This document shows positions 1 to 33,234 of a stretch of DNA of 36,044 nt, one piece after another. The translations under genes and the position numbers were made by a program. Origin of the DNA: Candidatus Undinarchaeales archaeon. GTDB taxonomy: Archaea; SpSt-1190; JASMDC01. The notes below the pieces were generated by a model, which saw only the letters and a list, made by a program, of their open reading frames with translations, made no database searches and had not been told where the DNA came from. The first letter of the stretch is position 1; the number at the start of each line of letters is the position of its first letter. The DNA lies in contig JASMDC010000035.1 in NCBI GenBank assembly GCA_030753015.1, positions 1 through 36,044 of the forward strand, in the 5' to 3' direction.

Positions 1-71
1 CCATGCAGATTTCCCTTTCGACTCCATCCCCTCCCTCTCGTAAGGGGACTTCCCGTCGAAACAAAAAAGAG

Positions 72-80
72 TTAAATATA
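72..80 (+). promoter_or_regulatory. TATA box of the NlpC/P60 surface protein gene
   Basis: TTAAATATA stands out in otherwise GC-rich sequence. A start about 27 nt from its centre would put transcription near position 103, giving a leader of about 40 nt before the ATG at 144. An AGGGGGTG stretch at 108-115 looks like a ribosome site but sits 28 nt from the ATG, too far to act normally. An in-frame TTG at 102 would suit a leaderless start and cannot be excluded. Confidence 0.5.
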
Positions 81-143
81 CGACGAACCATAGAATTTTC
101 ATTGAACAGGGGGTGCTCCGTCGGTCGACGGGGCGATGGGACG

Positions 144-11100: not shown

Positions 11101-14100
11101 GTTCGGTCCCGCACGCCCCGCGTGGCGTCCATAGGAGGTCGGGCATCGACTGGCACCCGGTCCCGCAACAGTACCCTGCCGTGGACCCGTGCTCACAAGC
11201 GGCGGCGCCGAAGGCGGCGCACGAAGCGCAGCGGTCGAGGCCGCCGATACCGTCCGTATCGAGGCAAGGGAAGAGATCCTGGCAATCGCCGCTCGACGTG
11301 CAGCCCTCCCGGCACTGGCCAGCGGACGGATCGCAACGGTAGGGCGAGCAGTCGCCCCTGCTCTCGAAGGTCCCGGTGGTCGAGCACTGGCCCCGGCGGG
11401 CGAGGTCATCGGAGCATACAGGATCGTCCAGGGAGTCACAGGCCCAGGAGCCGTCCCTACAGGTCACCGCCCCGGTGCAGTTGCCCGCGCCGCACGCGTT
11501 GCTGGGCGTCCATGCGGGCAGCGGCATGCCTTGGCAAGAGTCACCGCAGCAGAATCCCGTCGCACCGTCCAGGTCGCACACAGATGCCTCGTGCTCGACG
11601 CATCCACTGCAGCTGTCGGGCGCTCTGTCGCCGTCCACGTCGATGCAGGCTGCGGGCGCTAGGCATTGCTCGTTGGATACGCACCCGGTGAGGCACTCTC
11701 CCGAGGCATCGTCGCACCGGTAGGGGGCGCACAACTTCGCCTGGGCAGCGTTGAACACACCCGTCAGGCTGCAGGTGGACGACTTGTCCTGGGAACAGGC
11801 CGCACGTCCCGCGGAGCTGCACTGCCAGCTTCCGGTCGCGCACGCCACTATACCGTCGCACGGGGCCTCCCCGCAGGCGACCCCTGGCGTCCAGTCGAAG
11901 ATGAGCATGCCCGCGCACTCTCCACCACAGCAGTACCCGGCCTGGATGCCTTCCTGGCACTGCTTTGTAGCATGGTTGGAGCAGGTGGAACAGGTGTCCA
12001 GCCCGCCCGTGCCGTCGGTGTCGATGCACGACAGTCCGTCCTGGCAATCGGTGTCCGAAGCGCATGCTGCGCCTTCCCCTGCCAGGTCCGTGCAGGTGTT
12101 GGTGTTGCTGTCGCAGAATCCGGCCGCGCACTCGCAGCCCTTCGCACAGTCGGCGCCGTTGGGGAGCTTGGTCACGTAGCACAGGTCGTTGCAGCAGGCA
12201 CCCTCGCCGTCCCCCGTGTAGCACAACCGGCCCGTCTCCATCCCCGCACAGGAGCTGCAAGTGTCAACGAGGCTGTCACCGTCGCTGTCCCGGCACACGT
12301 CGGCGCACAGCTGGCCCACGCAGCACACGCCGCTCTGGCCCATGTTGTCGGTGGCAGGATTGCCGTTGTCCTCACCAGGGTGGCAGGCGCCGCACTGGCC
12401 ACCGGCACCGGTCTTGTCGATGCACAGCCCGCTGGCGCACTGCCCGCCGTCGGTGCAGGTTTGGCCGTCGCGGAGGAGGCAGGAGCCCCCGATGCACTGG
12501 TAGCCGGCCTGGCAGGGGCAGTCAAGGAGGCAAGTGCCGCAGTCCTCGCCCGCCTCGCACTTCCCGTTGCCGCAGCAGACGAGGGCCGCCTCTCCGGCCT
12601 CGTTGCAGTCCGGGTCCGTCCCGAAACACTCGGACGACAGGCAGATGGCGTCGCAGACCGCGGGGCACGCGGTGCACTGGGGGGGCACCGTGGCGCAGAA
12701 CTCGCCCCCGCTGCAGGTGACGCACGTACCGCCCACGCAGGAGCAGGAGTTGGCACTGCCCTCGCACTCGCTGGAGTCGTCCGCGGTGCACGCACCACCG
12801 GAGCAGTCGCTGCACCCGGGGCAGGCGGTGTAGCCGCAGGTGGACGAGCAGGTCCCCTCCGTCGCGGAGCAGATGGCGCCACCGCCCACATCGAGTCCGT
12901 CGCACTGGGTGGACACGCTCGCTCCGTTCTGGCCGTTGCACTCGGCATGGCACTCCGTGTCGCCCTCGGCCGTCCCGTCGGCCTCGCAGCAGTCCTGGGG
13001 ACAGGAGGCGTGGTCCTCGCCCGTTCCGTCATCACAGGAGCCATCACCGCACATGGTCCCTTGCAGGTATGTGACGGTGACACCGTACAGATCGGGAGAG
13101 CTGGTATGGGGAGTGGACAGATCGAACCTGTACTGGAAGTACCGGTTGTCAGCAACACCCGGGGCCTGGGGCGAGGTAATGGCGATGGTCGTGAACTCCT
13201 CGCCCGTGCACGAGGGATCATCGCAGCTCCGCACCTTTGGCGTGAGCTCTAGGAAGCCCCGTGCGTAGTGGTCCTGGATCTCGGCGGCGGAGAGCGCCCT
13301 GTCGTAGATGGCCACCTCGTCGAACGTGTTGGTATCGTACCTGCCCACGAAGAGGTCGTACGAGTTGGTGACGATGGCCCCAGTGAGCTCTTTAGACTTC
13401 TGCATCTGGCCGTTGACGTATATCTTCTGCTGAGCGCCCGCGGGAGCGGTCCGGTCATAGGTGAGCGCCACGTGGTACCATCCGGACGACAGCGTGGTCG
13501 ATATCTTCTGTCGGTTGATCCTGCCGACGACCGAATCGGAGTCGATGGTGAGCGCGTAGGCCCCGGGCTTGACGATACCACGGTCCGGGGCCAACCACAC
13601 GGTCTGCAGGAACCCGTCGTCGTTCGGGCCGCGGTAGGCGATGGCGAACACGGTGTCGGTGACCGGGACGATGACCGGTCTTCGTGCGAATGTGCCCTCG
13701 AACTGATTGGAATTGATGACGGCAAGCCCGCTCGTCCCGTCCTCGCCGATGGATACCATCTTCACCACTCCATACGTGTTGTGATTGGAGTAGACGAGGG
13801 CGAACAGGTCGTGATCGATGTGGACGATGTCAGGCTCGTACCCTTTCTGGGAATCGGAGGCGAACTGCAGAAGGGCAAGGGTCTCGTCCCCGATCTGGCC
13901 GTTGTCGGCGATGGACACGGTCCTGATCTCTCCGTGGTCGCTGTCCCCCCGGTAGGCGATAGCGAACACGTTCCCCGCCACGTTGACGATCACAGGCTCA
14001 TAGACCTTGTAGCATGTGCCCTCGGCATCTGTGTTGATCGAGAGCGTGTCGATGACCGCGCCGATGGTCCCTTTTTTGTCGATGGACACGGTCTTGAGAT

Positions 14101-15232: not shown

Positions 15233-15255
15233 GGGAAGATTTCTGTGCTTGACGA

Positions 15256-15263
15256 TTATTAAA
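15256..15263 (-). promoter_or_regulatory. TATA box of the 2479-aa surface protein (leaderless)
   Basis: Minus-strand TTTAATAA, whose centre lies 27.5 nt from the A of the ATG at 15232. There is no room for an untranslated leader, so the mRNA should be leaderless. This supports the chosen start over the longer frame. Confidence 0.65.
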
Positions 15264-15333
15264 GCTTGGGCCGGCAGGTCATCTGGGGGGCCCGTAAACA
15301 AGCATCCGGTGTCCGCGGTTCTTTTACTGAAGG

Positions 15334-19598: not shown

Positions 19599-20561
19599 CT
19601 AAGTTTGTCCGTCAATGAATTTGATGTAAGTATTGATGTACTTGTAGATGTCGTCCGGGGAGATGGCTACCGCCAACCCCTTCTGCTCCTTTGCGCACTG
19701 CAGCGCGGCGAACAGAATCGCACCCGTTGTGGGTCCCACGAGAAGGCCCCCCTTCCTTGCTAAAAGGATTCCGGTCCTGTAGGCGTCCTCGTCCGAGACC
19801 GAGATGACCTCGTCAATAAGCGACATGTCAAGTATCTTCGGGACAAGGTCATCCCTCAGACCCGTTATCCTCTTCATCCCAGGCAGGTTGTGCTCTGCCG
19901 TTTCCGGCTCGATCCCTATCACTTTGATATCGGGTTTCTTCTCCTTTAGATACTTGCTCACACCAGTTATCGTCCCACACGTCCCGAACGCAGCGAAGAA
20001 ATAATCGATCTTGCCTCGTGTCTGTCGCCAGATCTCCGGACCCGTCGTCTCGTAGTGCGCTCGAACGTTCAGTTCGTTCTCATACTGGTTCGGGTAGACA
20101 TACGAGCCCTCGTTCCGTGGGCTCTCAGCGATGCTCTTTGCCAAGCCCCGTGCTCCCTCGTTCGGGAACAACGGACACAGGCCGTCGTCCGCCTCCCAGA
20201 GCTCGACGCCCAGGAGTCTCAACAGCTTCTTCTTCTCCTCCGGGATCCGATCAGGTACGGCGATCTCGACGGGGATGCCCCTGGCGTTCGCCAACGATGC
20301 CAAGGCGATGCCGGTATTACCTGAGGAGGGCTCGATCAAGGACTGGCCTTTCTTGATCCCGGCATGCTCCAACATCGATAAGGCGATCCTGTCCTTGACG
20401 GAACCGAAGGGATTGTACCGCTCCAGCTTGAGGTAAATCGGAAAGCCAGGATGTGGATTGATACCCTCGTTCACCCGTACCATCGGTGTCGGATTCTCCG
20501 GGTTCGAGATGAGGCCCTCTATGCTATCGTAGACCCTGAGCTGATCGTTCGGTCCTGTCAT
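19599..20561 (-). CDS. cysM: Cysteine synthase family PLP enzyme
   Basis: A 320-aa fold-type II PLP enzyme. Lys56 in NPFGSVKDR is the expected Schiff-base lysine. PSSGNTG binds substrate, GTCGTITG binds PLP phosphate, and GPTTGAIL replaces the usual G-S-S-G loop. It should join sulfide to an activated serine (O-acetylserine or O-phosphoserine) to make cysteine. No serine acetyltransferase is in the window, and archaeal O-phosphoserine sulfhydrylases use the same fold, so the donor is open. A cystathionine beta-synthase-like role is an alternative, but no CBS domains are present. The start at 20561 has AAGGAGGTG at 20567-20575. The gene lies 31 bp after the TusA-like gene. Confidence 0.85.
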   Translation of the reverse strand: MTGPNDQLRVYDSIEGLISNPENPTPMVRVNEGINPHPGFPIYLKLERYNPFGSVKDRIALSMLEHAGIKKGQSLIEPSSGNTGIALASLANARGIPVEIAVPDRIPEEKKKLLRLLGVELWEADDGLCPLFPNEGARGLAKSIAESPRNEGSYVYPNQYENELNVRAHYETTGPEIWRQTRGKIDYFFAAFGTCGTITGVSKYLKEKKPDIKVIGIEPETAEHNLPGMKRITGLRDDLVPKILDMSLIDEVISVSDEDAYRTGILLARKGGLLVGPTTGAILFAALQCAKEQKGLAVAISPDDIYKYINTYIKFIDGQT

Positions 20562-20592
20562 ACATACACCTCCTTGGTATAGAGAGCGGCAC

Positions 20593-20859
20593 CTAGCCCT
20601 TCTTGATGATTATTTTTCGGGAGGTCTTGTCCACGTCGGTGGTCTCGAGCACCGTGCACCCGAGCTTATCAGCGGCGCTGAGGATGGTCTCGAAGGACGG
20701 TACGTTGTCGGTAACCACCTCGAGCACATCCCCGGAGGAGAGCGTCTTCAAGGCCCTCCTCACAAGGACCTCAGGGTAGGGGCAGGAGTATCCCAACGCA
20801 TCCAGTGCGTACCGCCCCTTTTCAAGTTCCTCAAGACCGAGCTTTCCATGTGATGTCAT
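20593..20859 (-). CDS. tusA: TusA/SirA-like sulfurtransferase
   Basis: An 88-aa protein with the family signature ALGYSCPYPEVLVRRALK; Cys26 in C-P-x-P is the persulfide-carrying residue. The rest (GDVLEVVTDN, then a C-terminal strand) fits the small two-layer TusA fold. TusA proteins pass sulfur as a protein persulfide between partners. Position between sulfite reductase (1-bp gap) and cysteine synthase suggests it handles sulfide or sulfane sulfur made by this operon. GAGGTG at the 3' end of the sulfite reductase gene serves as ribosome site, so the two are probably translationally coupled. Confidence 0.85.
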   Translation of the reverse strand: MTSHGKLGLEELEKGRYALDALGYSCPYPEVLVRRALKTLSSGDVLEVVTDNVPSFETILSAADKLGCTVLETTDVDKTSRKIIIKKG

Positions 20860-20860
20860 C

Positions 20861-22357
20861 CTATTTCACCTCTAGTTGTACCATCGATCCCAGTTCCTCT
20901 GCTGAATGTGATGCGCAGAACTCTGCGAAGTCCGCAAAACCCTCCTTCAGACAGTAGTCCACGAGCCTCTCGATCACGTCCCTCACGTGCTCCGGGTCCA
21001 CCTTCTTCGCCACGAGCTTGCTGAGCTGCGCCTTCTCTCCAAGCCTGCCGCCGAGGTAGATGTGGTATAACTCCCTGGCCTCGCTCGCGCTCACCGGAAT
21101 GCCCATCAGGCCTATGTCCCCAGTCGTCCGCAAGCAACAATCGTTCGGGCACCCGGACACGTACAGCCTCAGCTTCAGGTCATCGAGAGCCGTGCCAAAG
21201 CGACGCTCTAGATGCTCGACGATCCCCCTCGCCATCTGCTTTGGATAGGGTTCTGCGGCTTTTCCACAGAAGTCGGCCGCGCAGCCGATTGCCGTCCATC
21301 GGAGCGGCGGGCCCCGAACTGGCAGGTCTATGTCCCCAAGCTGCTTCAGGGCGTCCTCCAGCCCGTCCTGGGGGATGTTCACGAGGATCATGTTCTGGAA
21401 CGTGGTGTTCCGAACCTCGCCGCTCCCGAACTCGTCGACGATGTCGGACACGCGCCGCATGCGCTCGCTGGAAAGGATCCCCCCGATCAGCGGGATGGTG
21501 ATGAAGTAGTTTCCGTCCTTCTGTTCCTGGATCCCGCTGTGCTCTTCGCCGCTTATCCTCGGGCGGACCTCGAGCGGCTCCAGCTTCCTGCCCAGCTTTT
21601 CTTCGAGCTTCTCCCTCACCTGCTGGACGCCCCAGTTCGCGACCAGGTACTTGAACCGCGCCTTCGCCTTGCTCTCGCGGTTGCCGTGGTCCCGGTGGAT
21701 CTCGGCCATGGCCCGGGTGACGTCGAAGACATCGGAGGGCTTGATGAACGCGCCCAGCGGCTCGGCGAGCCTCGGCCCCGGCTGCGTCGCCCCGACCCCT
21801 CCACCGATGAGGGCAGCGAATCCAACCTCACCCTCATGCTCCACGGCGAACAGCCCTATGTCCTGGACCTCGGGCTTGGTGCACCTGATATCACACCCCG
21901 TGATCGAGATCTTGAACTTCTTGGGCATGTCGAGGAAGTCCCGGTTGCCGATGAAGAAATCGTTCATCTTCTTGGCCAGCGGCCGGACGTCGATGAGCTC
22001 GTCCCTGTCGACGCCTGCTACCGGGCACACGACGATGTTCCGAACATCGCCGTACCGCGCCCCCGGAAAGGCCTGGCCGCATTTGTCGGTGGTGAATCCG
22101 AGCTTCTCCATCCGGGCAAAGGCCTTCGGCGCATGCTCACCCTCTATCCAGTGGAGCTGTATGTCCTGTCGATCCGTGATCTCCGTATAGCCGCGGCCGT
22201 AGTCGTCGGACATCTGGGCGATGGCGCGGAGCTGTTCAGATGTCAATGTCCCGGCCGGGACCTTTATCCTGAGGAACTGATGGGAGCCGAGCCCCCGGTC
22301 TCTTCCCAGAGAATATCTGTCCATGAACCGCATGAGGTCGTCGGTTTCTATCTCCAT
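20861..22357 (-). CDS. Siroheme-dependent sulfite (or nitrite) reductase
   Basis: A 498-aa protein with two pseudo-symmetric ferredoxin-like and siroheme/Fe-S halves, the usual layout of single-chain ferredoxin-dependent assimilatory sulfite/nitrite reductases. The first half has TDRQDIQLHW and ITGCDIRCTKPEVQDIGL. The cluster ligands in the second half are C359-x4-C364 (GCAADFC) and C403-x3-C407 (SGCPNDC). The first pair is one residue shorter than the normal C-x5-C. The reaction expected is six-electron reduction of sulfite to sulfide in the cytoplasm. Neighbours for siroheme synthesis, ATP sulfurylase, APS reductase and cysteine synthase point to sulfite rather than nitrite. ATG at 22357 is preceded by GGGGG. 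The electron donor is not identified. Confidence 0.88.
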   Translation of the reverse strand: MEIETDDLMRFMDRYSLGRDRGLGSHQFLRIKVPAGTLTSEQLRAIAQMSDDYGRGYTEITDRQDIQLHWIEGEHAPKAFARMEKLGFTTDKCGQAFPGARYGDVRNIVVCPVAGVDRDELIDVRPLAKKMNDFFIGNRDFLDMPKKFKISITGCDIRCTKPEVQDIGLFAVEHEGEVGFAALIGGGVGATQPGPRLAEPLGAFIKPSDVFDVTRAMAEIHRDHGNRESKAKARFKYLVANWGVQQVREKLEEKLGRKLEPLEVRPRISGEEHSGIQEQKDGNYFITIPLIGGILSSERMRRVSDIVDEFGSGEVRNTTFQNMILVNIPQDGLEDALKQLGDIDLPVRGPPLRWTAIGCAADFCGKAAEPYPKQMARGIVEHLERRFGTALDDLKLRLYVSGCPNDCCLRTTGDIGLMGIPVSASEARELYHIYLGGRLGEKAQLSKLVAKKVDPEHVRDVIERLVDYCLKEGFADFAEFCASHSAEELGSMVQLEVK

Positions 22358-22400
22358 TTCAGTGCCCCCTGCATCGTATGTCAGATTGAAACATCTATTG

Positions 22401-23369
22401 TCACACTTCCTTGAGCCATCGCGCAGCGTCTTTTGCGAAGTAGGTGATGATGAGGTCCGCTCCGGCCCGCTTGATGCTGGTCAGCACCTCCATGGCCGTC
22501 GCCCTCTCGTCCAGCCACCCGGATCTGGCCGCGGCCTTCACCATGGAGTACTCGCCGCTGACATTGTACGCTGCGGTTGGATGACCGAACCGTTCCTTCA
22601 CCCGCCGGATGATGTCCAGGTACGGTAGGGCCGGTTTGACCATGACGATATCGGCGCCCTCGTCGATGTCCAGGGCCACCTCCCGCAAAGCCTCCTCCCC
22701 GTTAGCAGGGTCCATCTGGTAGCTTCGTCGATCCCCGAATTGGGGAGTCGAGTACGCCGCCTCGCGAAAGGGACCGTAGAAGGAGGACGCGAACTTGGCA
22801 GCATAGGACATGATACCGATGTGCTCGTACCCTGCACCGTCGAGCGCGGTCCTGATGGCACCCACCCGCCCGTCCATCATGTCCGACGGCGCCACCATGT
22901 CAGCTCCCGCCTCTGCGTGGGACCGTGCGACCTTGGTAAGCAGGTCGAGAGAGGGATCGTTGAGCACGCTGCCGTCCGAGACCACGCCGCAGTGACCCGA
23001 TGTAGTGTACTGGCAGAGGCACACATCGGTGATGACCACCAGTCTGTCGCCGTAGGCCTCCTTGAGTGCGGTAACGGCCTGCTGCACTACACCCTCCGAA
23101 GACGAGGCAGAGGACGCATTTGGGTCCTTTTTCAGGGGGATGCCGAAGAGGAGCACCGCAGGGATTCCGAGGTCCACCACGGACCGGGCCTCTTCCACTA
23201 CGCCCTCGTATGGGACGTGGAAGACGCCCGGCATCGAGGGGATCTCGCTCTTCTCGGTGATGCCCTCCCGCACGAACAAGGGTGCGACCAGGTCGTTGAC
23301 GCTCAGCTGCGTCTCCCGCATCATCCTCCGGATGGCCTCCGAGCGGCGGAGCCTCCGGGGTCGTATCAC
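22401..23369 (-). CDS. hemB: Porphobilinogen synthase (ALA dehydratase)
   Basis: A 322-aa protein, typical length. It condenses two 5-aminolevulinate molecules to porphobilinogen. Active-site lysines are Lys192 ([16 protein letters not shown]) and Lys245 ([12 protein letters not shown]). C117, C119 and C127 ([14 protein letters not shown]) form the zinc site, so this is a zinc-type enzyme. I use the GTG at 23369 because the family begins with the RPRRLRR segment just after it; the next Met (residue 16) would remove it. No ribosome site is evident before the GTG. A TATA-like element at 23418-23425 may give it a separate promoter. Confidence 0.9.
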
Positions 23370-23417
23370 CGGGAAGCCGGACAGGACGATCCCCCCTTGG
23401 TAAAGATCACGTTCTCG

Positions 23418-23425
23418 TTATAATA
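23418..23425 (-). promoter_or_regulatory. Possible internal promoter before hemB
   Basis: The 70-bp gap between hemL and hemB contains minus-strand TATTATAA in an AT-rich patch. Its predicted start would give hemB a leader of about 25 nt. It could let hemB, sulfite reductase and the following genes be transcribed apart from the upstream operon. Confidence 0.4.
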
Positions 23426-23439
23426 CAAAATTGGCATGT

Positions 23440-24771
23440 TCACCCACCCCCTCCACTCACCATGCTCCCGAAAGCGCGGTCGGCGATGGCGATAGTCTCC
23501 TCGATGTCATGGTCCGAATGTGCAGTGGAGACGAACCCGGACTCGAACTGTGATGGTGCGAGGTTGACACCTGCGGACTGGAGCGCCCAGAAGAACCTTG
23601 CGTACCGTGCCGTGTCCGATCCTTTGGCAGTTGCATGGTCCCGGACCTCCGTTGTTGTGAAGAACATCGAGAACATGGACCCTACTCTGGTGGGGAAGAC
23701 ATCCACGCCATGTTCTTCGGCAGCAGCTGTCAGACCCTTGTCGAGAGTGGACGATGCCCGCTCGAGACGATCGTACACACCTTCACGTCCAAGGACCTCG
23801 AGGGTCTTGATACCTGCGCGCATCGCAACGGGATTCCCCGAGAGAGTCCCTGCTTGGTAGACCTTACCGATGGGTGCGACCTGTTCCATTATGTCCCTCC
23901 TTCCTCCGTAGGCCCCTACGGGGAATCCCCCGCCGATGACCTTTCCTAGACAAGTTAGGTCCGGGACAACGCCGAACCGGCCCTGCGCTCCGTTGTACCC
24001 GACCCGGAACCCTGTGATCACCTCGTCGAACACGAGCAGGATGTCCTCGCGGTCGCAGATCTCCCGTAGACCCTCCAGGAATCCCTCACGTGGCGGTACG
24101 ACACCCATGTTCCCGCACACGGGCTCGAGGATGATGCACGCGATCCTGCCACGGTGGTTCTTCACGACGGTGTCAACAGCGAGAAGGTCGTTATATGGGA
24201 GCGAGATGGTGTTCCTCGCAAAGTCAGCAGGCACGCCCTTGCTGTCGGGAACACCAAGGGTCAGTCCGCCTGATCCGGCCTGGATGAGGAGATGGTCCAC
24301 ATGACCGTGGTAACAGCCATCGAACTTGATGATAATGTCCCTGCCCGTGAATCCCCGGGCGAGACGGATCGCGGACATGGTGGCCTCGGTGCCGGAGTTG
24401 ACCATTCGCACAAGCTCCACGGCGGGCAGCGCTTCCACGATCATCCTGGCCAGTGTGGACTCCATCTCGGTGGGTGCACCATAGCTCACACCCCGCTCGG
24501 TCTGGTCCCGCACGCACGCCATCACCTCGGGGTGGGCATGGCCGAGGATGAGGGGACCCCAGGAGCACACATAGTCGATGTACTCCTTCCCGTCGACATC
24601 ATGGATCCTCGATCCCGTGGCCCGTGACACGAAGAACGGATTCCCCCCCACACCACTGAAGGCACGGACCGGGCTGTTGACTCCTCCTGGGATATAGCTT
24701 TTCGCAAGGTCGAACAACTTCTTCGAGCGTTCCCCACGTTCCGGGACATGAGTTCCTGTATCGTTCATCAT
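23440..24771 (-). CDS. hemL: Glutamate-1-semialdehyde 2,1-aminomutase
   Basis: A 443-aa PLP enzyme of the class III aminotransferase fold. It converts glutamate-1-semialdehyde to 5-aminolevulinate, the second step of the C5 pathway. Lys277 in GKVIGGGFPVGAYGG is the PLP lysine; the PLP-contacting FDEVITGFR and the entry motif SGTEATMSAIRLAR are intact. The ATG at 24771 overlaps the stop of the cobA-hemD fusion (ATGA), indicating translational coupling, and GGAGGGG lies about 8 nt upstream. Confidence 0.93.
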   Translation of the reverse strand: MMNDTGTHVPERGERSKKLFDLAKSYIPGGVNSPVRAFSGVGGNPFFVSRATGSRIHDVDGKEYIDYVCSWGPLILGHAHPEVMACVRDQTERGVSYGAPTEMESTLARMIVEALPAVELVRMVNSGTEATMSAIRLARGFTGRDIIIKFDGCYHGHVDHLLIQAGSGGLTLGVPDSKGVPADFARNTISLPYNDLLAVDTVVKNHRGRIACIILEPVCGNMGVVPPREGFLEGLREICDREDILLVFDEVITGFRVGYNGAQGRFGVVPDLTCLGKVIGGGFPVGAYGGRRDIMEQVAPIGKVYQAGTLSGNPVAMRAGIKTLEVLGREGVYDRLERASSTLDKGLTAAAEEHGVDVFPTRVGSMFSMFFTTTEVRDHATAKGSDTARYARFFWALQSAGVNLAPSQFESGFVSTAHSDHDIEETIAIADRAFGSMVSGGGG

Positions 24772-26321
24772 GGTACTCGTTCCCCTCCGTCCTCAGAGGT
24801 CGTATCTCGTAGATGGCTCTCGAGCGCTGCCACGAGGCCCTCCATGGTCGACGTCGTCGCTACAACATCAGACTCGATACCAAGTTCCCTGACCGCCGCA
24901 GCGGTCACAGGACCGATGCAGGCGATGGTGGCCGCGCCCCCTGCAAGGAGCTCGGTCCCCTGGCTCCCTATGCCCTTGAAGAACGTCTTGACCGCTGAAG
25001 GGCTCAGGAAGGTGATGGTGTGGAGCCCTCCCGACTCGAGTTGCGCGATGAGGCGTTCTCCGTCGAAGTCGCATTCCACGGTCCGGTAGACGGGGAGGTC
25101 ACGGACCTCGGCCCCCATCCGGGATAGCCCGTCCGGGAGCGCGGGGTTGGCCCCGGCTGCCCGTGGGATAAGGACCTTCTTCCCCTCCAGTGACCTTTCG
25201 CGCAGCACGGCCAAGAGTCCGTTCGATGTGAACACTTCTGGCACTACGGAAACGGTCACGCCTCGTGACTCCAGCTCTTTTGCGGTCACGGGTCCGATGG
25301 CCCCGACGGAGGACCGGGAGAGCGTTTGTGGCGAAACGCCGCAAGCATCCATCCTGTCAAGGAAGGTACGGACTCCGTTGACGCTTGTGAAGAGCACCCA
25401 ATCGTAGTGGTCGATCCGCAGGACCTCCTCCTCGATCGCCCTTGTATCGTCCAGACCCTCCACCGCGATGACCGGCACGACCTCGGGGACCGCACCAGCA
25501 CCGGTGAGGAGCCGGCTGAAGGTATCGGCCTGTGCTTTCGGTCTCGTTACGAGGACGGTCTTCCCGGCAAGCGGGCTTGGCACGAACCAACTCAGCCTCT
25601 CTCCCAGAGGTACCACGTCACCGATCACGATAACCGCCGGAGGTCGGATGCGTGCATTGGCAGCTTGTTCCACAAGCTCGCACAGGGGAGCATTGACGGT
25701 CCGCTGACGATGTGTCGTTCCGTCCTCTATGATCGCTGCGGGGGTGCCTGCATCGACACCCGCATCGAGGAGGTTCTGCACGATGTGTGAGAGGTTCGCC
25801 ACGCCCATGAGGATGACTAGGGTCTGGGCACGGTCGGTGAACTCGTTCCATCGGATGGACGGAACGGTCTTTATCGGGTCCTCGTGTCCTGTGAGGCAGA
25901 TGAAGGAGGAGGCATGTCGTCTATGTGTCAGAGGGATCCCTGCATAGGCGGGTACTGCGATGGCCGACGAGATGCCAGGGACTATCTCGAACTCGATCCC
26001 GGCCTCGACCAGACGTTCCGCCTCCTCACCGCCCCGACCGAACACGAAGGGATCGCCCCCTTTCAACCGGACAACTCGCTTTCCCTTTAATGCTAGGTCG
26101 ACGAGGATGTCGTTGATCTCCTTCTGGCTACGGCCTTCCCCTCCCGGAACCTTCCCGACATGGATGAGCTTGCATCCAGCTCCTACCTCGGAAAGGAGCA
26201 CAGGGTCCACCAGACGGTCGTACACGACGACGTCCGCGTTCCGGATCACCTCCATCCCCTTGACGGTGATGAGCCCGGGATCCCCCGGCCCCGCTCCTAC
26301 GAGATAGACCTTGCCAGCCAT
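24768..26321 (-). CDS. cobA-hemD: CobA-HemD fusion: uroporphyrinogen III methyltransferase and synthase
   Basis: A 517-aa two-domain protein. Residues about 1-245 are a SAM-dependent uroporphyrinogen III C-methyltransferase (VYLVGAGPGDPGLIT, LKGGDPFVFGRGGEE, VPGISSAIAVPAYAGIPLTHR), which makes precorrin-2. Residues about 250-505 are uroporphyrinogen III synthase (LAGKTVLVTRPKAQ, FTSVNGVRTF, ITFLSPSAVKTFF), which closes hydroxymethylbilane. Such fusions are known in several bacteria and join two consecutive steps toward siroheme. It lies 12 bp after hemC and overlaps hemL by 4 bp. The gene order matches pathway order around uroporphyrinogen III. Confidence 0.93.
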   Translation of the reverse strand: MAGKVYLVGAGPGDPGLITVKGMEVIRNADVVVYDRLVDPVLLSEVGAGCKLIHVGKVPGGEGRSQKEINDILVDLALKGKRVVRLKGGDPFVFGRGGEEAERLVEAGIEFEIVPGISSAIAVPAYAGIPLTHRRHASSFICLTGHEDPIKTVPSIRWNEFTDRAQTLVILMGVANLSHIVQNLLDAGVDAGTPAAIIEDGTTHRQRTVNAPLCELVEQAANARIRPPAVIVIGDVVPLGERLSWFVPSPLAGKTVLVTRPKAQADTFSRLLTGAGAVPEVVPVIAVEGLDDTRAIEEEVLRIDHYDWVLFTSVNGVRTFLDRMDACGVSPQTLSRSSVGAIGPVTAKELESRGVTVSVVPEVFTSNGLLAVLRERSLEGKKVLIPRAAGANPALPDGLSRMGAEVRDLPVYRTVECDFDGERLIAQLESGGLHTITFLSPSAVKTFFKGIGSQGTELLAGGAATIACIGPVTAAAVRELGIESDVVATTSTMEGLVAALESHLRDTTSEDGGERVP

Positions 26322-26333
26322 GTCAAACAGACC

Positions 26334-27266
26334 TCATGATCCTCCTTGTTGTTGTGGGGTTCCTTTGAGGAGGTCCAACCCCCCCAGTGAGACCAGTTTC
26401 TTTGCGAGCTTGCTTGCGGTCCCGGAACCGTCATCGGGAGATCCTTCACCCGCTAGGTCGATCCTCCATTTCCCGTCGGGGGATGCCACGGCCACCTGCA
26501 GACGAAGGACAGTGGAGGACATGCGGGCAAGCACGCCAATTGGGACCTGGCACCCTCCGCCAACCCCCTCAAGGAAGCAACGCTCCGCAGCAACCTCCTG
26601 CCGGCTCGAAAAGTGGTCCACCCTCTCCAGGATGGAACGTATCTCATCATCATCGGCTCTCGCCTCCACACCGATGGCGCCCTGCCCCGCAGCAGGCGTG
26701 ATGACGTCCTCGGGTATGACCGTGGTCCTGACATCTTCTGGTCGGAGCCGGAGGATGCCGGCCTGCGCCAGGATGACGGCGTCAAGCTCACCGGAGCGCA
26801 CCTTCTCGATCCGGGTGTCGACGTTACCCCTGATGTCCATGATGTTAAGGTCGGACCTTGCGTAGAGGGCAAGCGCTCGCCTCCTCAGGCTGCCGGTACC
26901 CACCTGAGCGGCGCTGTGGATATTCTCCAGGGTGCAACCATCCGTCGTGATGAGGGCATCCCGGGGATCCTCCCGCTCCAGGATGGCTCCAAGTGCGATC
27001 CCCTCGTCCCGCTCCACGGGGATGTCCTTCATGCTGTGCACGGCCACGTCCACACGGTCGTCCAGGAGCGCTCGGTCGATCTCCTTCACGAACATACCCT
27101 TGTCCTGCACCTTAGGTGTGCGATCACTCCCGACCGCATCCCCCGAGGTCCGTATCTTGACGATCTTTGTGTCCTGATCGGGGAACGCGCTACTCAGCTT
27201 TTCAACAAGGATCTCGGCCTGGCGCATGGCAAGCCTGCTACCTCGGGTCCCGATCCTCAATGTCAT
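26334..27266 (-). CDS. hemC: Porphobilinogen deaminase (hydroxymethylbilane synthase)
   Basis: A 310-aa protein that polymerises four porphobilinogens into hydroxymethylbilane. Cys239 in GGGCQVPIG carries the dipyrromethane cofactor. The N-terminal IGTRGSRLAMRQA, the catalytic aspartate in HSMKDIP (Asp81) and the GTGSLRRRA arginines are intact. Length is typical. Its ATG overlaps the hemA stop by 4 bp (27263-27266), so the two are translationally coupled. Confidence 0.94.
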   Translation of the reverse strand: MTLRIGTRGSRLAMRQAEILVEKLSSAFPDQDTKIVKIRTSGDAVGSDRTPKVQDKGMFVKEIDRALLDDRVDVAVHSMKDIPVERDEGIALGAILEREDPRDALITTDGCTLENIHSAAQVGTGSLRRRALALYARSDLNIMDIRGNVDTRIEKVRSGELDAVILAQAGILRLRPEDVRTTVIPEDVITPAAGQGAIGVEARADDDEIRSILERVDHFSSRQEVAAERCFLEGVGGGCQVPIGVLARMSSTVLRLQVAVASPDGKWRIDLAGEGSPDDGSGTASKLAKKLVSLGGLDLLKGTPQQQGGS

Positions 27267-28552
27267 CTTCGCATCCCCTCGATGAGAAGTCGCTGGTCGG
27301 GCGCAGCGTCCAGTTCGAAGAGGTCACGGACGGATTCCGCCTGCCGCTCACCCTCCGCGGAGGTCGCCTGCATCCTCAGGTTCCTGACAGGGTCCTCGAG
27401 AATCTTCTTGGTGAGGCTACGGCTCATGTCATGGATGATTCTTCTGTCTCGCTCGGAGAGCTCGCCCAGCATGGCGAGTGCCCGCCTGAGCTCGCGTGAC
27501 CTGATGTCCTCGATCCTCGAGTAGAGGGATGAGATGATCGGTTCGATGTGGATGCGGGAGAGCCGAGCGGTGAACGTGGCCACCTCGTCCTCGACGATGT
27601 GTTCCGCTCGATGGGATTCCTTCTGGCGGTTCAGACGGTTCTCCTCGGCGATCCGGTCCAGCGAGTCCATGTCGTGGAGATGTACGCCTTGGATCTCCGT
27701 GATGGCCGGATCGAAGTCCCGGGGGACCGCGATGTCGATGATGTGGAGGTCTCGCTCGTTCTCCTGCCCCACCCGTGCCTTGATGACCCGTTCCATATCC
27801 TCTCGTCGTACGATGTGGCGCGGGGCGGCGGTCGAGCTGATGACCAGGTCCGCTTCCACGAGAGCGTCCTGGAGACGGTCGAGCCGCTGGGCCGTCCCTC
27901 CAAAGCGCCGGGCGATCCGTTCCGCCTTCGTAAAGGTCCGGTTGGCAAAGATGATCGTCCCCACTCCTTTTTCCGCGAGAATGCCCGCGATCAACTCAGC
28001 GTTCTTACCTGCGCCGATCACGAGCACCTGCTGGAGCCCTGTGTCGTCGAACAATCCTTCCGCGAGCTTGACCGCGGCCGAGGCCACTGAGACGGTCCCC
28101 CGAGACACACCTGTGACGGTTCTAACCCGCTTCCCGACGCAGACCGCTTTCTGGAAGATACGACCCAGGACCGGGCCCGAGGTCCCGTTCTCCTCGGAGG
28201 ATGCGAGCGCATCCCGGACCTGGCCAAGTATCTGACCCTCCCCGACCATGAGCGAGTCCAGGCTGGATGCCACACGGAACAGGTGCCTGATCGCGTCCGC
28301 ACCCGAGTAGGTATAGACCACGTTCCTGAGGGCCTCCATATCCGTTCCTGACGCTTCTCGGATTATCTCGAGCGTCGTTGCGATCAGGTCATCCGCGCTC
28401 TCTCCGACCGAGTAGACCTCCAACCGGTTGCACGTTGCCACCACGACCGTCTCAGTCATCCTCTGGCATGGTAGGAGATCGTTGACGCGGCGCAGGGTGC
28501 GCTTGGATGTGAACCGTCCCCGGACCGAGAGGGGGGTGGTCAGGTGGCTCAT
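27263..28552 (-). CDS. hemA: Glutamyl-tRNA reductase
   Basis: It reduces glutamyl-tRNA to glutamate-1-semialdehyde with NADPH, the committed step of tetrapyrrole synthesis. From the ATG at 28552 the protein is 429 aa, with catalytic Cys41 in ATCNRLEVYS, a Rossmann motif VLVIGAGKNAELI and the C-terminal helical dimerisation domain. That start lacks the first beta strand of the family. In frame just upstream, the DNA encodes HIVVVG before MSHLTTPLSVR, matching that missing strand, but without ATG, GTG or TTG. An ATT at 28571-28573, 8 nt after GGAGG, would restore it and put the active Cys at residue 48. I report the conservative start here; the longer protein is likely the real one. Confidence 0.92.
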   Translation of the reverse strand: MSHLTTPLSVRGRFTSKRTLRRVNDLLPCQRMTETVVVATCNRLEVYSVGESADDLIATTLEIIREASGTDMEALRNVVYTYSGADAIRHLFRVASSLDSLMVGEGQILGQVRDALASSEENGTSGPVLGRIFQKAVCVGKRVRTVTGVSRGTVSVASAAVKLAEGLFDDTGLQQVLVIGAGKNAELIAGILAEKGVGTIIFANRTFTKAERIARRFGGTAQRLDRLQDALVEADLVISSTAAPRHIVRREDMERVIKARVGQENERDLHIIDIAVPRDFDPAITEIQGVHLHDMDSLDRIAEENRLNRQKESHRAEHIVEDEVATFTARLSRIHIEPIISSLYSRIEDIRSRELRRALAMLGELSERDRRIIHDMSRSLTKKILEDPVRNLRMQATSAEGERQAESVRDLFELDAAPDQRLLIEGMRR

Positions 28553-28554
28553 CC

Positions 28555-29190
28555 CTACGACGACGATGTGAATTCCTCAACCCTCCGTACGATCTCTGTC
28601 TCAGAGGCCCCGCCTTTGAGTAGGTCCAGTAGCACCTGGTGTGGGATGGCATTGAAGAACGCCATCCTCTCCTCGACGTTCACCAGCCTTCTCTTGACCG
28701 TTGGTCTCAGGCTACCAAGGATGTCGAGGAGCCTTCCGTACTCCTCTCCATACAAATCCCCCAGCTCCAGCCGTATGCTCCTGGCCAGGGCCGGGCTCTT
28801 CCCGTCCGTGCCGACGGCTATGGTGAGAGATCCCCTTCGGAGCACGGATGGCATGATAAAGTCGCTGTCATCGCGGGAGTCCGCGACGTTGACGATGGTT
28901 CCGTTGGCGCGGGCATCACGAGAGACGGCCGAGTTCATGGCCAGGTCATCGGTGGCAGCGATGACGAGGAATGCATCCCGGACGTGTTGTACCTTGTACT
29001 CCTCTCGGATGTGGATCACCCTGCCCTCGCCCTCAAGTTCCGCGATCCCCGGAGTAACGTCCGGGCTGACCACCGTCACCTGCTCAGTACAGCGAAGGAT
29101 GGAGCGGACCTTGCGTTCAGCGACCGTTCCGCCGCCGACAACGACACACCGCCGATCTTCAAGATGGAGATTGACCGGGAACGCGTCCAC
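28555..29190 (-). CDS. Precorrin-2 dehydrogenase / possible sirohydrochlorin ferrochelatase
   Basis: A 211-aa protein of the Met8p / CysG N-terminal type. It oxidises precorrin-2 to sirohydrochlorin with NAD and in some members also inserts iron. Residues 15-30 hold the NAD-binding VVVGGGTVAERKV. Asp104 in NVADSRDDSDF matches the catalytic aspartate numbered 104 in E. coli CysG. No separate ferrochelatase is in the window, which favours a bifunctional enzyme here. The start is GTG at 29190 preceded by GGTGAT; an ATG 4 nt upstream is out of frame. It lies 62 bp after the ATP sulfurylase gene. Confidence 0.9.
   Translation of the reverse strand: MDAFPVNLHLEDRRCVVVGGGTVAERKVRSILRCTEQVTVVSPDVTPGIAELEGEGRVIHIREEYKVQHVRDAFLVIAATDDLAMNSAVSRDARANGTIVNVADSRDDSDFIMPSVLRRGSLTIAVGTDGKSPALARSIRLELGDLYGEEYGRLLDILGSLRPTVKRRLVNVEERMAFFNAIPHQVLLDLLKGGASETEIVRRVEEFTSSS
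28571..28586 (-). promoter_or_regulatory. Ribosome site and candidate ATT start of hemA
   Basis: On the minus strand GGAGG (28582-28586) is followed after 8 nt by ATT (28571-28573), in frame with hemA and just after an in-frame TGA at 28577-28579. No ATG, GTG or TTG occurs between that stop and the ATG at 28552. The site lies inside the 3' end of the precorrin-2 dehydrogenase gene, whose stop is at 28555-28557. Confidence 0.5.
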
Positions 29191-29252
29191 GCATCACCCC
29201 CCCTCTCCAGGCTTCTAGTCCTGATGTGCCTCCGTGCTCGAACGATCTCAGC

Positions 29253-30416
29253 TCAGATCCCTCCTCCATCCTGGTAGTGCATCGCTAGGATCTCGGCGAC
29301 CTCGCCTCGTGTGCACTCCTTCGGCAGGGACGCTCCGATTCTCAGGAGTTCACGTACCTTCGTACCGCTTAAGAATATGTGGTCGCTCTTTGGATGCGGG
29401 CACGTTTTAGTTGTGGCCATGGCATCGCATCTCTTGCAGTAGAAAGCATGGTCGAACATAATGGGCGTGATCGAGAGCTCCTCCATGGTGAACTCCAGAA
29501 AGAGATTCTGCGCGTCGAACGTGCCGTAATAGTTACCCACACCCGCGTGATCCCTCCCAACGATGAAGTGGGTGCACCCGTAGTTCTTCCGAACGAGCGC
29601 GTGGAAGATGGCTTCCCGCGGTCCCGCGTATCTCATGGCCGCTGGGAACACGCTCAATTGGACCCTGTCCTTCGGGTAGTATTCCTCTATGGCGGACTCG
29701 TAGGAGTTCAATATGACGTTGGCAGGTACGTCCCCCTTCTTGGTCTGTCCGACAAGAGGGTGGATGAGGAGTCCGTCGACGGTCTCCAAGGCGCACTTCT
29801 GGATGTACTCGTGCCCCCTGTGGATGGGATTCCGCGTCTGGAATCCCACCACTGTCCTCCAGCCCTTCTGCTCGAAGGACTTCCGCGTCAGAGCCGGATC
29901 GAGACAGTACTTCTCCAAGGAACCGTGGCCTGGTCTGCGGAGCAGGGTTACCTTCCCCCCCACGAGCGTCTCGCTGTCCGAGTAGATCTTATTCACACCT
30001 GGGTGGTCGATGTCAGTGGTCCGGAAGACGAGACTGGCTTCCTTCTCCTTGTCGCGGGTGAACTTCTCCTCGATCCTGATCGTCCCGAGGATCTCGCCCG
30101 CAGGTGTTGAGAGGGCACGCTCGTCGCCGACATCGATCCCCTTCGCTACTGTTTTCGTCACGGGGAGCGTGATAGGCAGTGACCAGATGAGGCCGTTGGA
30201 CAGCCTCATTTCCTCCACCACGCTCAGATAGTCCTCCTGCGTCATGAAACCCTCAAGGGGACTGAAGGCGCCAACTGAAATGAGCTCGAGATCGGCGATG
30301 GACCACTCATCGAGCTCTATCCGTTGGAGCTCACCGGCCTCACGGCACGCCTCTTTCCCTTTTCTCTCTGATACGGTCCTGTCGATGAGCCGGCCGCCAT
30401 GCGGTGAGATCGTCAT
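29253..30416 (-). CDS. sat: ATP sulfurylase (sulfate adenylyltransferase)
   Basis: A 387-aa homomeric-type ATP sulfurylase, which activates sulfate with ATP to adenosine 5'-phosphosulfate. [12 protein letters not shown] holds the active-site HxGH-like motif, and GRDHAGVG and the basic MRYAGPREA loop are present. A C-terminal CKRC...C cluster may bind zinc, as in several archaeal and bacterial Sat proteins. I start at the ATG at 30416, 11 bp after the cysH stop. The frame is open 107 codons further, but that part overlaps cysH and is unlike the family. No APS kinase gene follows, in keeping with direct APS reduction. Confidence 0.93.
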
Positions 30417-30427
30417 TGCGTCACGTC

Positions 30428-31153
30428 CTAACACTGCTTTCTTCCCGGATGCAGACCGCATTCCTTGGTGTCGGGTGATTCCCACCACCAGCGACCAGCC
30501 CGGACGTTCTCTCCCGACTCGATCGCCCGGGTGCAGGGCTCGCATCCGATGCTCGGGAAGCCCTTGTCGTGGAGCTTGTTGTAAGGGATGTCGTTCTCCT
30601 TGATGTAGGCCCAGATCTCCTCCTCGCTCCAGTCGGCCAGCGGATTCAGCTTGACGAGCCCGTTCCCCTCGTCCCACTCCACCTTTGGCAGCCCCACCCG
30701 GGTGGTGGACTGGGCCCGGCGGAGGCCGGTGACCCACGCGTCAAGGACCGAGAGGGCCCTTTTGAGAGGTTCGACCTTCCTGATGACGCAGCATTCCCTT
30801 CGGTTGTCCACGCTCTCCTTGAAGGAGAAGAATCCCTTCTGCTCAGAGAGCTCTTGAAGGGCCTTCGTGTCGGGGGAGTAGACCACAAGCTCCTTGCCAT
30901 ACTTCTTCCTGACCTCCTCCATGACGGAGTAGGTATCCTCGTGGAGCCGTCCCGTGTCCAGGGTGAAAACCTTCACGTCAGGTCGGGCCTTCAGTGCCAG
31001 GTCCATCAGTACCACGTCCTCTGCCCCGAAGCTCGAGGCGATACCGATCTTGGGGGAGAAGCGGTCGATGGCCCATATAAGGACCTCCTTCGCGTCAGCA
31101 TTCTCAAGTTTTTTGTTCGCGGCTTCGATTTCTTCTTTGATTGATTCGTCCAT
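30428..31153 (-). CDS. cysH: APS reductase, CysH type with [4Fe-4S] motif
   Basis: A 241-aa PP-loop type reductase. The C121-C122 pair ([11 protein letters not shown]) and C204-x2-C207 (GCEPC) are the four ligands that mark APS-using enzymes. Cys232 in KECGLH is the catalytic nucleophile. The expected reaction reduces APS to sulfite and AMP, with electrons from thioredoxin or similar. The absence of APS kinase nearby agrees with APS rather than PAPS as substrate. ATG at 31153 has AGGTGAT upstream. It lies 18 bp after the second TauE gene and 11 bp before sat. Confidence 0.92.
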
Positions 31154-31171
31154 CTTGTATCACCTGTAATG

Positions 31172-31915
31172 TTAGATGAGCATGAGCTTGACTCCCGAGA
31201 GCGCGACCATCGAGCCGATGGCGAGGTTAATCCTCCTGTTCTCCATCGTTAGACAATAGTGGCTTCCGATCAACAATCCCGGTATGGCCCCCAGAGTGAG
31301 GTCGAACGTGAGGCTGTAGTCCACGATGCCCATTGAGATGAACGCCGCGGTGGCCGGGAGGGAGAGGAGCGCCATGATCATGAGGTTCGTGCCCACTGCC
31401 TTCCTCGGCTCGAGGCCGTTGATGTGTATGAGCGCTATGATGATGAACGGTCCGCCTATGGAGCTGATGCCCATGAGGAGGCCGATGAGGAGAAAGTACG
31501 ACACGAGGAGGACGTTCCTCCTAACGCTGAAATTCGACGGGTCGTGGGATTGATGCTTTTCTTCCTTCTTGAAGAGAAAGGACAGGGCCGCTGCGATGAG
31601 GATAACTCCGAGGAACTGACTAAGGAGCCATTCGGGGAGCGCTCCGAGAAGGCGGGCACCCACGAGGATCCCCGGGATCCCCCCGACCAGCACGGGCGGT
31701 ATGTACCGCAGGTCATAGTTGTCGTGCCCCATGTGCGTCATGGTCGCGATCGATTTCATGATGGTCCCGAAGAGCATGTTGGACGCGACGACGGTCCGGG
31801 GATCGATCCCGAAGATGGAGAAGAGGATGGCCATCCCTATGATTCCCATCCCGATGCTGGTCATCCCCACTACCCCCCCCACGAGGAAACCGACGAGCAC
31901 GTAGGCGGGATTCAC
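31172..31915 (-). CDS. TauE/SafE family permease, copy 2
   Basis: A 247-aa integral membrane protein with about eight hydrophobic segments in two pseudo-repeats. Typical TauE/SafE features are the glycine-rich GFLVGGVVGMTSIGMGIIG and GGIPGILVGARLLGALPE near the N-terminus and VGTNLM plus GAIPGLLIGS near the C-terminus. The family moves anions such as sulfite, sulfoacetate or other organosulfur compounds. Next to cysH it may take up sulfate or export toxic sulfite; direction cannot be read from sequence. It starts at GTG (31915) with GGTGATG upstream. It is clearly homologous to the next upstream gene. Confidence 0.87.
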   Translation of the reverse strand: MNPAYVLVGFLVGGVVGMTSIGMGIIGMAILFSIFGIDPRTVVASNMLFGTIMKSIATMTHMGHDNYDLRYIPPVLVGGIPGILVGARLLGALPEWLLSQFLGVILIAAALSFLFKKEEKHQSHDPSNFSVRRNVLLVSYFLLIGLLMGISSIGGPFIIIALIHINGLEPRKAVGTNLMIMALLSLPATAAFISMGIVDYSLTFDLTLGAIPGLLIGSHYCLTMENRRINLAIGSMVALSGVKLMLI

Positions 31916-32091
31916 GATCCGACATCACCACTCGATTGCCCGGACCCGCTCCCGGTGTCCAATGGGTCATTGTCCTGCGGAATGGAGATGGTCGGGCACA
32001 TTCTTCTCACCGAACCAATCCTACCACTCATCATCTTACTCCAGCCGCACACCTGTTTAAGAGGTTATCGTCCATGCCTTTCACCTTTCGG

Positions 32092-32841
32092 TCAGAAGAG
32101 CATGAGCTTCATGCCCGAGAGTGCGATCATCGAGCTGAGCGCAAGATGCATGTTCTCCTGCTTCGACCTAACACAGAAATGGCTCCCGATCAGCAGTCCG
32201 GGAAGGGAACCGAGCGTAAGGTTCATGGCGAGCGGTATGTCCACGAGGCCCATGTGAAGGAAGGCGAGCGTGGCCGGGATCGAGAGGAGTGTCGCGATCA
32301 CCAGGTTCGTGCCCACGGCTTTTTGCGGTTCGAGGCCAAGGCCTCCGACGAACATGAGGATGAAGAACGTTCCGCTCCCCATCGAGCTCAAGCCTATGAC
32401 GAGACCTATGGAGAGGCTGCTTGCCATTATGCTAATCCTCGTACGACGGTTCATCGTTGATAGTTCATGTGGGTGGCTCTCCCCCTTCTTCTTCAAGAAG
32501 AAGGCGAGCGCTGCCGTCATGAGGATCGCTCCGAGGGACCTTCTCAGGATCCATTCCGGGAGCGCTCCGAGCAGTTGGGTCCCTATGAGAACTCCGGGGA
32601 TCCCACCCATAAGGGCCGGAATGATAACTGCCTTTTCGAGGTTCTTATAGCTGGCATGCCTCAGCGCAGCTATCGACTTCATGAGGGTTCCAAAGAGCAT
32701 ATTTGAGGCCACCACGACCTTCGGATTGATACCGAAGACGAAGAGAAGTGACGAGGCTCCAATGGTACCTAGACCTATCCCGCTCAATCCCACGAGCCCT
32801 CCCACGAGGAAACCGAGGATCACTAATGCTGGTTCTATCAT
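32092..32841 (-). CDS. TauE/SafE family permease, copy 1
   Basis: A 249-aa membrane protein, first gene of the sulfur operon. It shares with copy 2 the same segments in the same order (VVVASNMLFGT, GGIPG, LGALPEW, KAVGTNL, LPGLLIGSH, and a final ALSG-KLML end). A tandem duplication followed by divergence is the simple explanation. It differs at residues 15-35, which could alter substrate choice. The ATG at 32841 is preceded by AGGTGATA at 32846-32853. A gap of 176 bp to copy 2 contains only a weak TATA-like patch, so I treat both as one operon. Confidence 0.87.
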   Translation of the reverse strand: MIEPALVILGFLVGGLVGLSGIGLGTIGASSLLFVFGINPKVVVASNMLFGTLMKSIAALRHASYKNLEKAVIIPALMGGIPGVLIGTQLLGALPEWILRRSLGAILMTAALAFFLKKKGESHPHELSTMNRRTRISIMASSLSIGLVIGLSSMGSGTFFILMFVGGLGLEPQKAVGTNLVIATLLSIPATLAFLHMGLVDIPLAMNLTLGSLPGLLIGSHFCVRSKQENMHLALSSMIALSGMKLMLF

Positions 32842-32867
32842 GTGGTATCACCTATCAGTATTCTTGT

Positions 32868-32879
32868 CAGAACGTTCTG
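32868..32879. promoter_or_regulatory. 12-bp perfect palindrome before the sulfur operon
   Basis: CAGAAC and GTTCTG are exact reverse complements with no spacer, ending 27 bp before the first permease ATG. It lies downstream of the predicted promoter and leader ORFs. It may be an operator for a dimeric regulator or a weak RNA hairpin. No TATA box is evident next to it. Confidence 0.4.
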
Positions 32880-33003
32880 CGCGCCTTGCCGCACTCTACT
32901 GAACGGCGGCAGACGGACATTGCTCCCACGAATCCCCGAAGGGGGTCGAGCGACCGCTCCCCGGATGTGAGGGCTCCGGGTCACTAAGAAGAAGAAATCG
33001 ACG

Positions 33004-33081
33004 CTACTGCTGGGATCCTTTGTGCTGCGACCGACAAAGGCACTCCCCCCAGGGGACCTTGCGATCGTTCACAGAGAGCAT
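33004..33081 (-). CDS. Leader mini-ORF 2 with GECLCRS
   Basis: A 25-codon ORF in the leader of the sulfur operon, starting MLSVND and containing GECLCRS before ending in a TAG at 33004-33006. Its Cys codons TGC-CTT-TGT form the 5' arm of a perfect 7-bp hairpin (33034-33040 with 33017-33023). The stop is followed by a pyrimidine-rich tract (32984-33003). The ribosome site is weak (GGCGGG next to the ATG). From the shared Glu codon to the stop it is exactly as long as mini-ORF 1. It is probably regulatory rather than enzymatic; coding is inferred from frame conservation between the two copies. Confidence 0.5.
   Translation of the reverse strand: MLSVNDRKVPWGECLCRSQHKGSQQ
33026..33050 (-). repeat. 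25-bp direct repeat, downstream copy
   Basis: It is identical over 25 bp to 33150-33174, at a distance of 124 bp, and embedded in a longer imperfect similarity of about 60 bp (both copies have a GAAGAAA tract and GCTACT on the plus strand before it). On the minus strand it encodes GECLCRS within mini-ORF 2. No third copy was noticed in the window. Confidence 0.85.
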
Positions 33082-33127
33082 ACCCGCCGGTAGCGAGAGG
33101 TGTTGTGCGTGGAAAGAAGAAAGGTTG

Positions 33128-33181
33128 CTACTCAGAAGGGGCCTGTGGATGCGACCGACAAAGGCACTCCCCCCGAGTCAT
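33128..33181 (-). CDS. Leader mini-ORF 1 (MTRGECLCRSHPQAPSE)
   Basis: A 17-codon ORF with ATG at 33181 and TAG at 33128-33130. The TATA box TTTATAAA at 33205-33212 has its centre 27.5 nt from the ATG, the same spacing as for the 2479-aa gene at 15232. That predicts a leaderless start directly on this ORF. Two Cys codons and an Arg codon lie at positions 6, 8 and 9. They form one arm of a predicted hairpin closed by GGGG/CCCC. The stop is followed by a pyrimidine-rich tract (33111-33127). It is the first ORF of the transcript that leads into the cysteine biosynthesis genes. Confidence 0.55.
   Translation of the reverse strand: MTRGECLCRSHPQAPSE
33150..33174 (-). repeat. 25-bp direct repeat, upstream copy
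   Basis: Same 25-bp unit as 33026-33050. In this copy it encodes GECLCRS in mini-ORF 1. The sequence after the unit differs from the other copy, yet both keep 24 nt to the stop codon and both keep pairing with the repeat's inner arm. Confidence 0.85.
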
Positions 33182-33196
33182 ATCACAATAGTTATG

Positions 33197-33213
33197 TTTT
33201 ATAATTTATAAAA
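33197..33213. promoter_or_regulatory. Symmetric TATA element serving both directions
   Basis: TTTTATAATTTATAAAA is a palindrome around a single central base. Its minus-strand TTTATAAA is placed for a leaderless start of mini-ORF 1 at 33181. Its plus-strand form would start transcription near 33236 toward the radical SAM gene. The strong AT content in a GC-rich window makes it the best candidate promoter of the whole sulfur operon. Confidence 0.65.
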
Positions 33214-33234
33214 GTTTCGAATTGCGCCCCCGTC

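Follow-up and report, generated by a model that had tools for sequence, protein, structure and literature searches.

A duplicated cysteine-codon leader precedes a sulfate-assimilation and cysteine operon in an Undinarchaeales archaeon and may control it

A sulfate-assimilation and cysteine operon behind a very strong promoter

We analysed a 36,044-nucleotide stretch of DNA from a Candidatus Undinarchaeales archaeon (assembly GCA_030753015.1, contig JASMDC010000035.1), here called the window. Its minus strand carries an operon with the gene order tauE-tauE-cysH-sat-sirC-hemA-hemC-cobA/hemD-hemL-hemB-sir-tusA-cysK/M (19599-32841), assigned from Pfam matches and translations and, for cysH, sir and cysK/M, from NCBIfam. 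The sat ORF as listed (29253-30737, minus strand) starts too early: homologues align from about residue 104, which places the real start near 30461-30437, overlapping cysH. The window also encodes two very large Cys-rich ORFs (3-6032, plus strand, and 7793-15301, minus strand; about 110 and 240 Cys codons), which are perhaps surface proteins.

The genome comprises 3.85 Mb, of which 1.66 Mb (43%) was sampled, with gene calls from a simple caller. It encodes CysRS and, as a mark of its archaeal nature, four TATA-binding proteins; among the control genomes this family occurs in archaea only. The TATA-binding protein genes lie on C44, C48, C53 and C65 of this genome (G000), whose 3.8 Mb compare with 0.6-1.1 Mb for the class-mates examined.

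In the minus-strand intergenic region ahead of the operon (33219-32841), a single, very strong archaeal promoter is followed by a 340-nt leader. Scored with a BRE/TATA matrix built from leaderless genes in the sampled 1.66 Mb, the promoter CGAAACTTTTATAAAT (33204-33219, minus strand) reaches 19.5, the highest value in that sample, and the same matrix finds no further site scoring above 8 between this promoter and tauE. The predicted transcription start, 33181, is the A of the first of three short ORFs. The ATG of this mini-ORF 1 lies at offset 38 from the promoter, which is the peak offset of the genome's leaderless genes, whose promoters cluster clearly at this distance. A leaderless start behind a strong TATA box, as proposed in the initial annotation, is therefore predicted from promoter score and ATG offset with ideal geometry. 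tauE itself is preceded by a Shine-Dalgarno sequence, AGGTGAT (32847-32853, minus strand). Between the two tauE genes (32031-32068, minus strand) lies another, internal promoter that scores lower (9.1) and is accompanied by a small leaderless ORF.

Cys-containing mini-ORFs and a unique 25-bp repeat

Mini-ORF 1 (33128-33181, minus strand) encodes MTRGECLCRSHPQAPSE, with Cys codons TGC and TGT. Mini-ORF 2 (33004-33081, minus strand) encodes MLSVNDRKVPWGECLCRSQHKGSQQ; its start is uncertain and lacks a clear Shine-Dalgarno sequence. The two share the peptide GECLCRS through a direct repeat of 25 bp, GGGGGGAGTGCCTTTGTCGGTCGCA, present at 33150-33174 (copy 1) and 33026-33050 (copy 2), both on the minus strand. 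This relationship had been noted previously, and it withstands scrutiny: the match is exact, zero such repeats are expected in shuffled sequence and the 3.85-Mb genome holds no third copy. Within the sampled 1.66 Mb (158 kb intergenic), it is the sole isolated intergenic repeat of its kind, the exceptions being short tandem arrays and one duplicated block on C37.

Similarity between the copies extends beyond the identical core. On its 3' side both have AGTAGC at an identical offset and, one base off, TTTCTTCTT, a similarity that shuffled sequences reach in 1 of 300 cases. Upstream of the core we found no similarity between the copies, which makes the repeat unit about 65 nt long. The shared AGTAGC also explains why, as the initial annotation had pointed out, each ORF ends (TAG) 39 nt past the first base of the common Glu codon.

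A third mini-ORF, overlooked earlier, lies between copy 2 and tauE (32867-32920, minus strand) and encodes MSVCRRSVECGKARRTF, with two Cys codons. Three such Cys mini-ORFs in one leader have a P of about 0.001, a figure that is inflated since two of them derive from the repeat. Two Cys in about 17 codons are common in this genome when taken on their own (binomial about 0.06), and a genome search of mini-ORFs found that Cys content alone fails to single out the window leader. A general search of the genome for mini-ORFs rich in any single amino acid likewise returned nothing above expectation.

Pyrimidine tracts without supporting RNA structure

The stop codons of the two repeat-bearing mini-ORFs are each followed by a pyrimidine tract: CCTTTCTTCTTTCC (33111-33124, minus strand) after mini-ORF 1 and TTTCTTCTTCTT (32986-32997, minus strand) after mini-ORF 2. 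Such C/U-rich tracts, already remarked on in the initial annotation, prove to be rare in this GC-rich genome: 101 kb of upstream DNA contain 10, and this leader holds two of those. The first tract, CCTTTCTTCTTTCC, is a possible U-rich termination-factor site. As a candidate for the usual terminator of this genome, the C/U tract was rejected, with no clear enrichment or U-tract signal at gene ends.

The hairpins that had been drawn at the Cys codons did not hold up: when the 3' part is shuffled, equally good ones arise by chance (p 0.17-0.81), and their z values are -1.1 and +0.7. The whole leader does not outdo its shuffled versions in folding, the segment that separates the copies is no more complementary to either repeat than shuffled sequence is (p 0.54 and 0.38) and no terminator-like site was found in the leader. 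We also modelled ribosomes at the Cys or stop codons in a simple folding model and rejected a translational switch at the Shine-Dalgarno sequences of tauE or of a second cysteine gene, cysK (see below), as neither changed usefully. The proposal that ribosomes control these hairpins, and with them readthrough into the operon, is left unsupported by the chance-level hairpins, the lack of a terminator-like site and the lack of a switch at tauE.

These results also bear on the idea that the leader contains tandem structured RNA elements, binding a metabolite or a protein, whose open reading frame is accidental. Such elements would fit a long and GC-rich leader with tandem units in which a variable part accompanies a conserved core. 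Covariance models from Rfam gave no match for the leader at gathering or relaxed thresholds, which together with the unremarkable folding makes this explanation distinctly unlikely.

A second cysteine unit has the same layout

Blind to gene names, we searched the sampled 43% of the genome for strong promoters with an ATG at the leaderless distance, an ORF of 8-45 codons and a same-strand gene at most 600 nt further on, with thresholds chosen in the course of the analysis. Among about 692 upstream regions, this layout of a leaderless mini-ORF in a long leader occurs in 7 cases. By promoter score, the window operon and a cysK-cysE unit rank at the top, and the sampled portion yielded no further cysteine-biosynthesis unit. 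By simple arithmetic, the chance that both fall among the 7 is near 1e-4.

The cysK mini-ORF, MRWRDRFCHRQYLSLQCAPFGIKV, is predicted to be leaderless and lies at C34:6414, 240 nt ahead of cysK (C34:5242-6174; TIGR01139, 456.8 bits against a cut-off of 351), which is followed by a serine acetyltransferase-like gene (cysE). The cysK-cysE leader (locus L104, 6171-6450, minus strand) has a stable hairpin across the mini-ORF stop (z -3.8 for a 46-nt segment), and the cysK Shine-Dalgarno sequence is predicted to be paired. Both cysteine leaders contain the palindromic octamer GAACGTTC (window 32870-32877; L104 6236-6243), which has 6 intergenic copies in 158 kb and is a possible operator.

At least two Cys codons occur in five of the seven leaderless mini-ORFs (P 2.6e-5). 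At shifted control offsets, the corresponding counts are 0/4, 0/4 and 0/9 (together 0/17), and 2/6 at a fourth. The other three mini-ORFs with at least two Cys codons precede genes unrelated to cysteine (in two cases a ribokinase-like and a nitrilase-like gene), the third looking like a small zinc-binding protein, and Cys content by itself therefore marks no cysteine regulon.

Leaders of homologous operons in another archaeal phylum

The closest homologous operons were found in G385 and G105, members of family f32 in another archaeal phylum, with the order tauE-aprA-aprB-sat-(sirC)-hemB-hemC-cobA/hemD-hemL-sir-tusA. These loci (L042 and L043) are assimilation-type operons, with tauE, siroheme genes, sir and tusA, and carry an aprAB-type APS reductase; the window operon has CysH.

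The initial annotation had suggested searching related operons for short Cys ORFs, and the outcome is divided. In G385, a TATA-like sequence and a Shine-Dalgarno sequence, GGTGGTG, lead into MRDLLCGCCDCC, which immediately precedes tauE. This peptide packs five Cys into 12 codons (P 0.0045 or less), and after it, from 4391 of L043, comes a terminator-like hairpin with a U tract. The sister genome G105 retains ATGAGGGATTTANTTTGC, with the start and first Cys codon conserved, but its leader peptide, MRDLVCLNSD, contains a single Cys. Among 28 genomes of that phylum, we found no other carrier of the f32 leader motif. Ahead of sat, cysH or sir at 18 other archaeal loci, including the sir-tusA-aprAB-sat operons of family f10, we found no convincing Cys leader; the few ORFs at these loci have unusual starts or lack promoter support. 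Sulfite reductase searches in two more phyla, a DNA search of plasmids and a scan of viral contigs gave nothing useful, and a scan of named genomes returned one unrelated bacterial locus only. All four leaders (window, cysK, G385 and G105) share [DE]-x-[FLV]-C, a pattern noticed post hoc and serving as a lead only.

Could the arrangement be devoid of regulatory meaning, a chance leaderless upstream ORF together with a recent short duplication? The ordinary frequency of two Cys in so few codons and the chance-level hairpins would agree with that. We nevertheless consider it unlikely, as cysK is preceded by the same layout, the layout is rare, the similarity of the copies runs past their identical core and a Cys-rich leader stands ahead of a homologous operon in another phylum.

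TAACGCYGTTA-like palindromes are present at sulfur-operon promoters in two archaeal groups (L042 at about 870-890, L043 at about 4262-4282 and the sir promoters of L066-L068), and a transcription factor common to both groups is possible. Such palindromes close to promoters of other archaeal sulfur operons, together with the octamer in both cysteine leaders and nucleotide-level conservation over exactly 25 bp, would be expected if the window repeats were DNA operators for a repressor, at +8 and +132 of the transcription unit, with incidental reading frames. The 25-bp block, though, is not palindromic and has no other genomic copy, none before cysK, and a repressor leaves both the leaderless Cys mini-ORF before cysK and the G385 peptide unexplained. 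We thus assign operators a low probability.

A model for cysteine-responsive leader control

The window holds a promoter, leaderless geometry, ORFs and a repeat, and the genome holds a second operon of the same layout. We infer from this arrangement that the 340-nt leader is probably a cis-acting control region in which translated leader peptides respond to cysteine. The proposal of Cys leader peptides before archaeal cysteine genes thus gains from the cysK-cysE leader and from G385, and loses the control by hairpins and readthrough that was originally attached to it. Counting against a leader-peptide reading are the two Cys per mini-ORF without a Cys run, the chance-level hairpins, the lack of a terminator-like site and of a Shine-Dalgarno switch in the window leader, the lack of a clear U-tract signal at gene ends, the three Cys mini-ORFs before genes unrelated to cysteine, the single Cys in G105 and the lack of a comparable leader at the other archaeal sat/cysH loci scanned.

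Under leader-peptide control, transcription would begin at the A of mini-ORF 1, which would be translated as a leaderless message. Progress of the ribosome at the Cys codons, set by Cys-tRNA charged by CysRS, would report cysteine shortage, and shortage would favour expression of the operon (the sign of this response is assumed from physiology). The duplicated unit would act as a second sensor. Once translation of the mini-ORF ends and the ribosomes depart, the C/U-rich tract behind the stop would lie bare and could be exposed to a terminator specific for U-rich RNA, FttA/aCPSF1 for instance. With a ribosome held back at the Cys codons, this tract could be shielded or folded otherwise, and RNA polymerase would read on. 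For the step from ribosome position to output, we favour such translation-dependent premature termination on the strength of the leader's resemblance to a mycobacterial case, of the U-rich preference of FttA and of the hypothesis that it and ribosomes exclude each other, while regarding this step as rather doubtful.

More broadly, Cys leader peptides, leaderless or led by a Shine-Dalgarno sequence, might sense Cys-tRNA in archaea and govern a cysteine regulon through transcription-translation coupling and FttA-type termination, a generalization that we offer tentatively. Such control may have separate origins in two phyla, or may descend from one ancestral leader with [DE]-x-[FLV]-C.

Comparison with known systems

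Attenuation by leader peptides belongs to the textbook mechanisms of bacteria and relies on close coupling of transcription and translation. The window leader resembles attenuators of the trp/his type in placing a leader peptide with cognate codons before a biosynthetic operon. It differs from them in that our analysis showed neither an intrinsic terminator nor competing hairpins; the G385 leader comes closer. We found no described case of archaeal leader-peptide attenuation in the literature. If the model is true, the position of the ribosome serves archaea as a sensor of amino acids, and strong TATA boxes, leaderless mini-ORFs and cognate codons offer a route to search archaeal genomes.

In archaeal termination by FttA/aCPSF1, the recognised feature is U-rich nascent RNA (PMC11616081, PMC8716108), the feature that the tracts of the window leader would present. 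Mutual exclusion of FttA and ribosomes is a published hypothesis (PMC11616081). Our literature search found no regulated, amino-acid-specific use of this termination, and the leader would, if the model is true, be a natural test bed for whether the ribosome opens and closes it.

The nearest parallel is in mycobacteria, where the speed of ribosomes at the Cys codons of leaderless polycysteine short ORFs is described as controlling cysteine operons (Canestrari et al. 2020, as cited in PMC9031893 and PMC9094748). Polycysteine leader ORFs had been predicted earlier, and the Mycobacterium leaders lack conserved terminator hairpins, with pyrimidine-rich tracts proposed as Rho sites for factor-dependent termination (PMC1262725). 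The window leader differs in belonging to an archaeon, in having two spaced Cys codons per ORF, in its duplicated unit and in that its Cys response is a prediction. Mini-ORFs 1-3 and the cysK mini-ORF are short ORFs in cysteine-operon leaders, as in the polycysteine class. The contiguous Cys run near the stop that marks that class has its counterpart only in the dense run of G385, the window having C-x-C in mid-ORF. We do not claim membership for the window leader, because it has neither a Cys run nor a terminator. With the mycobacterial leaders it shares a short, predicted leaderless, Cys-containing ORF ahead of cysteine genes, the absence of an obvious terminator hairpin and the presence of pyrimidine-rich tracts, which in the window leader stand behind the stops of mini-ORFs 1 and 2, and by this analogy it most likely works as they do.
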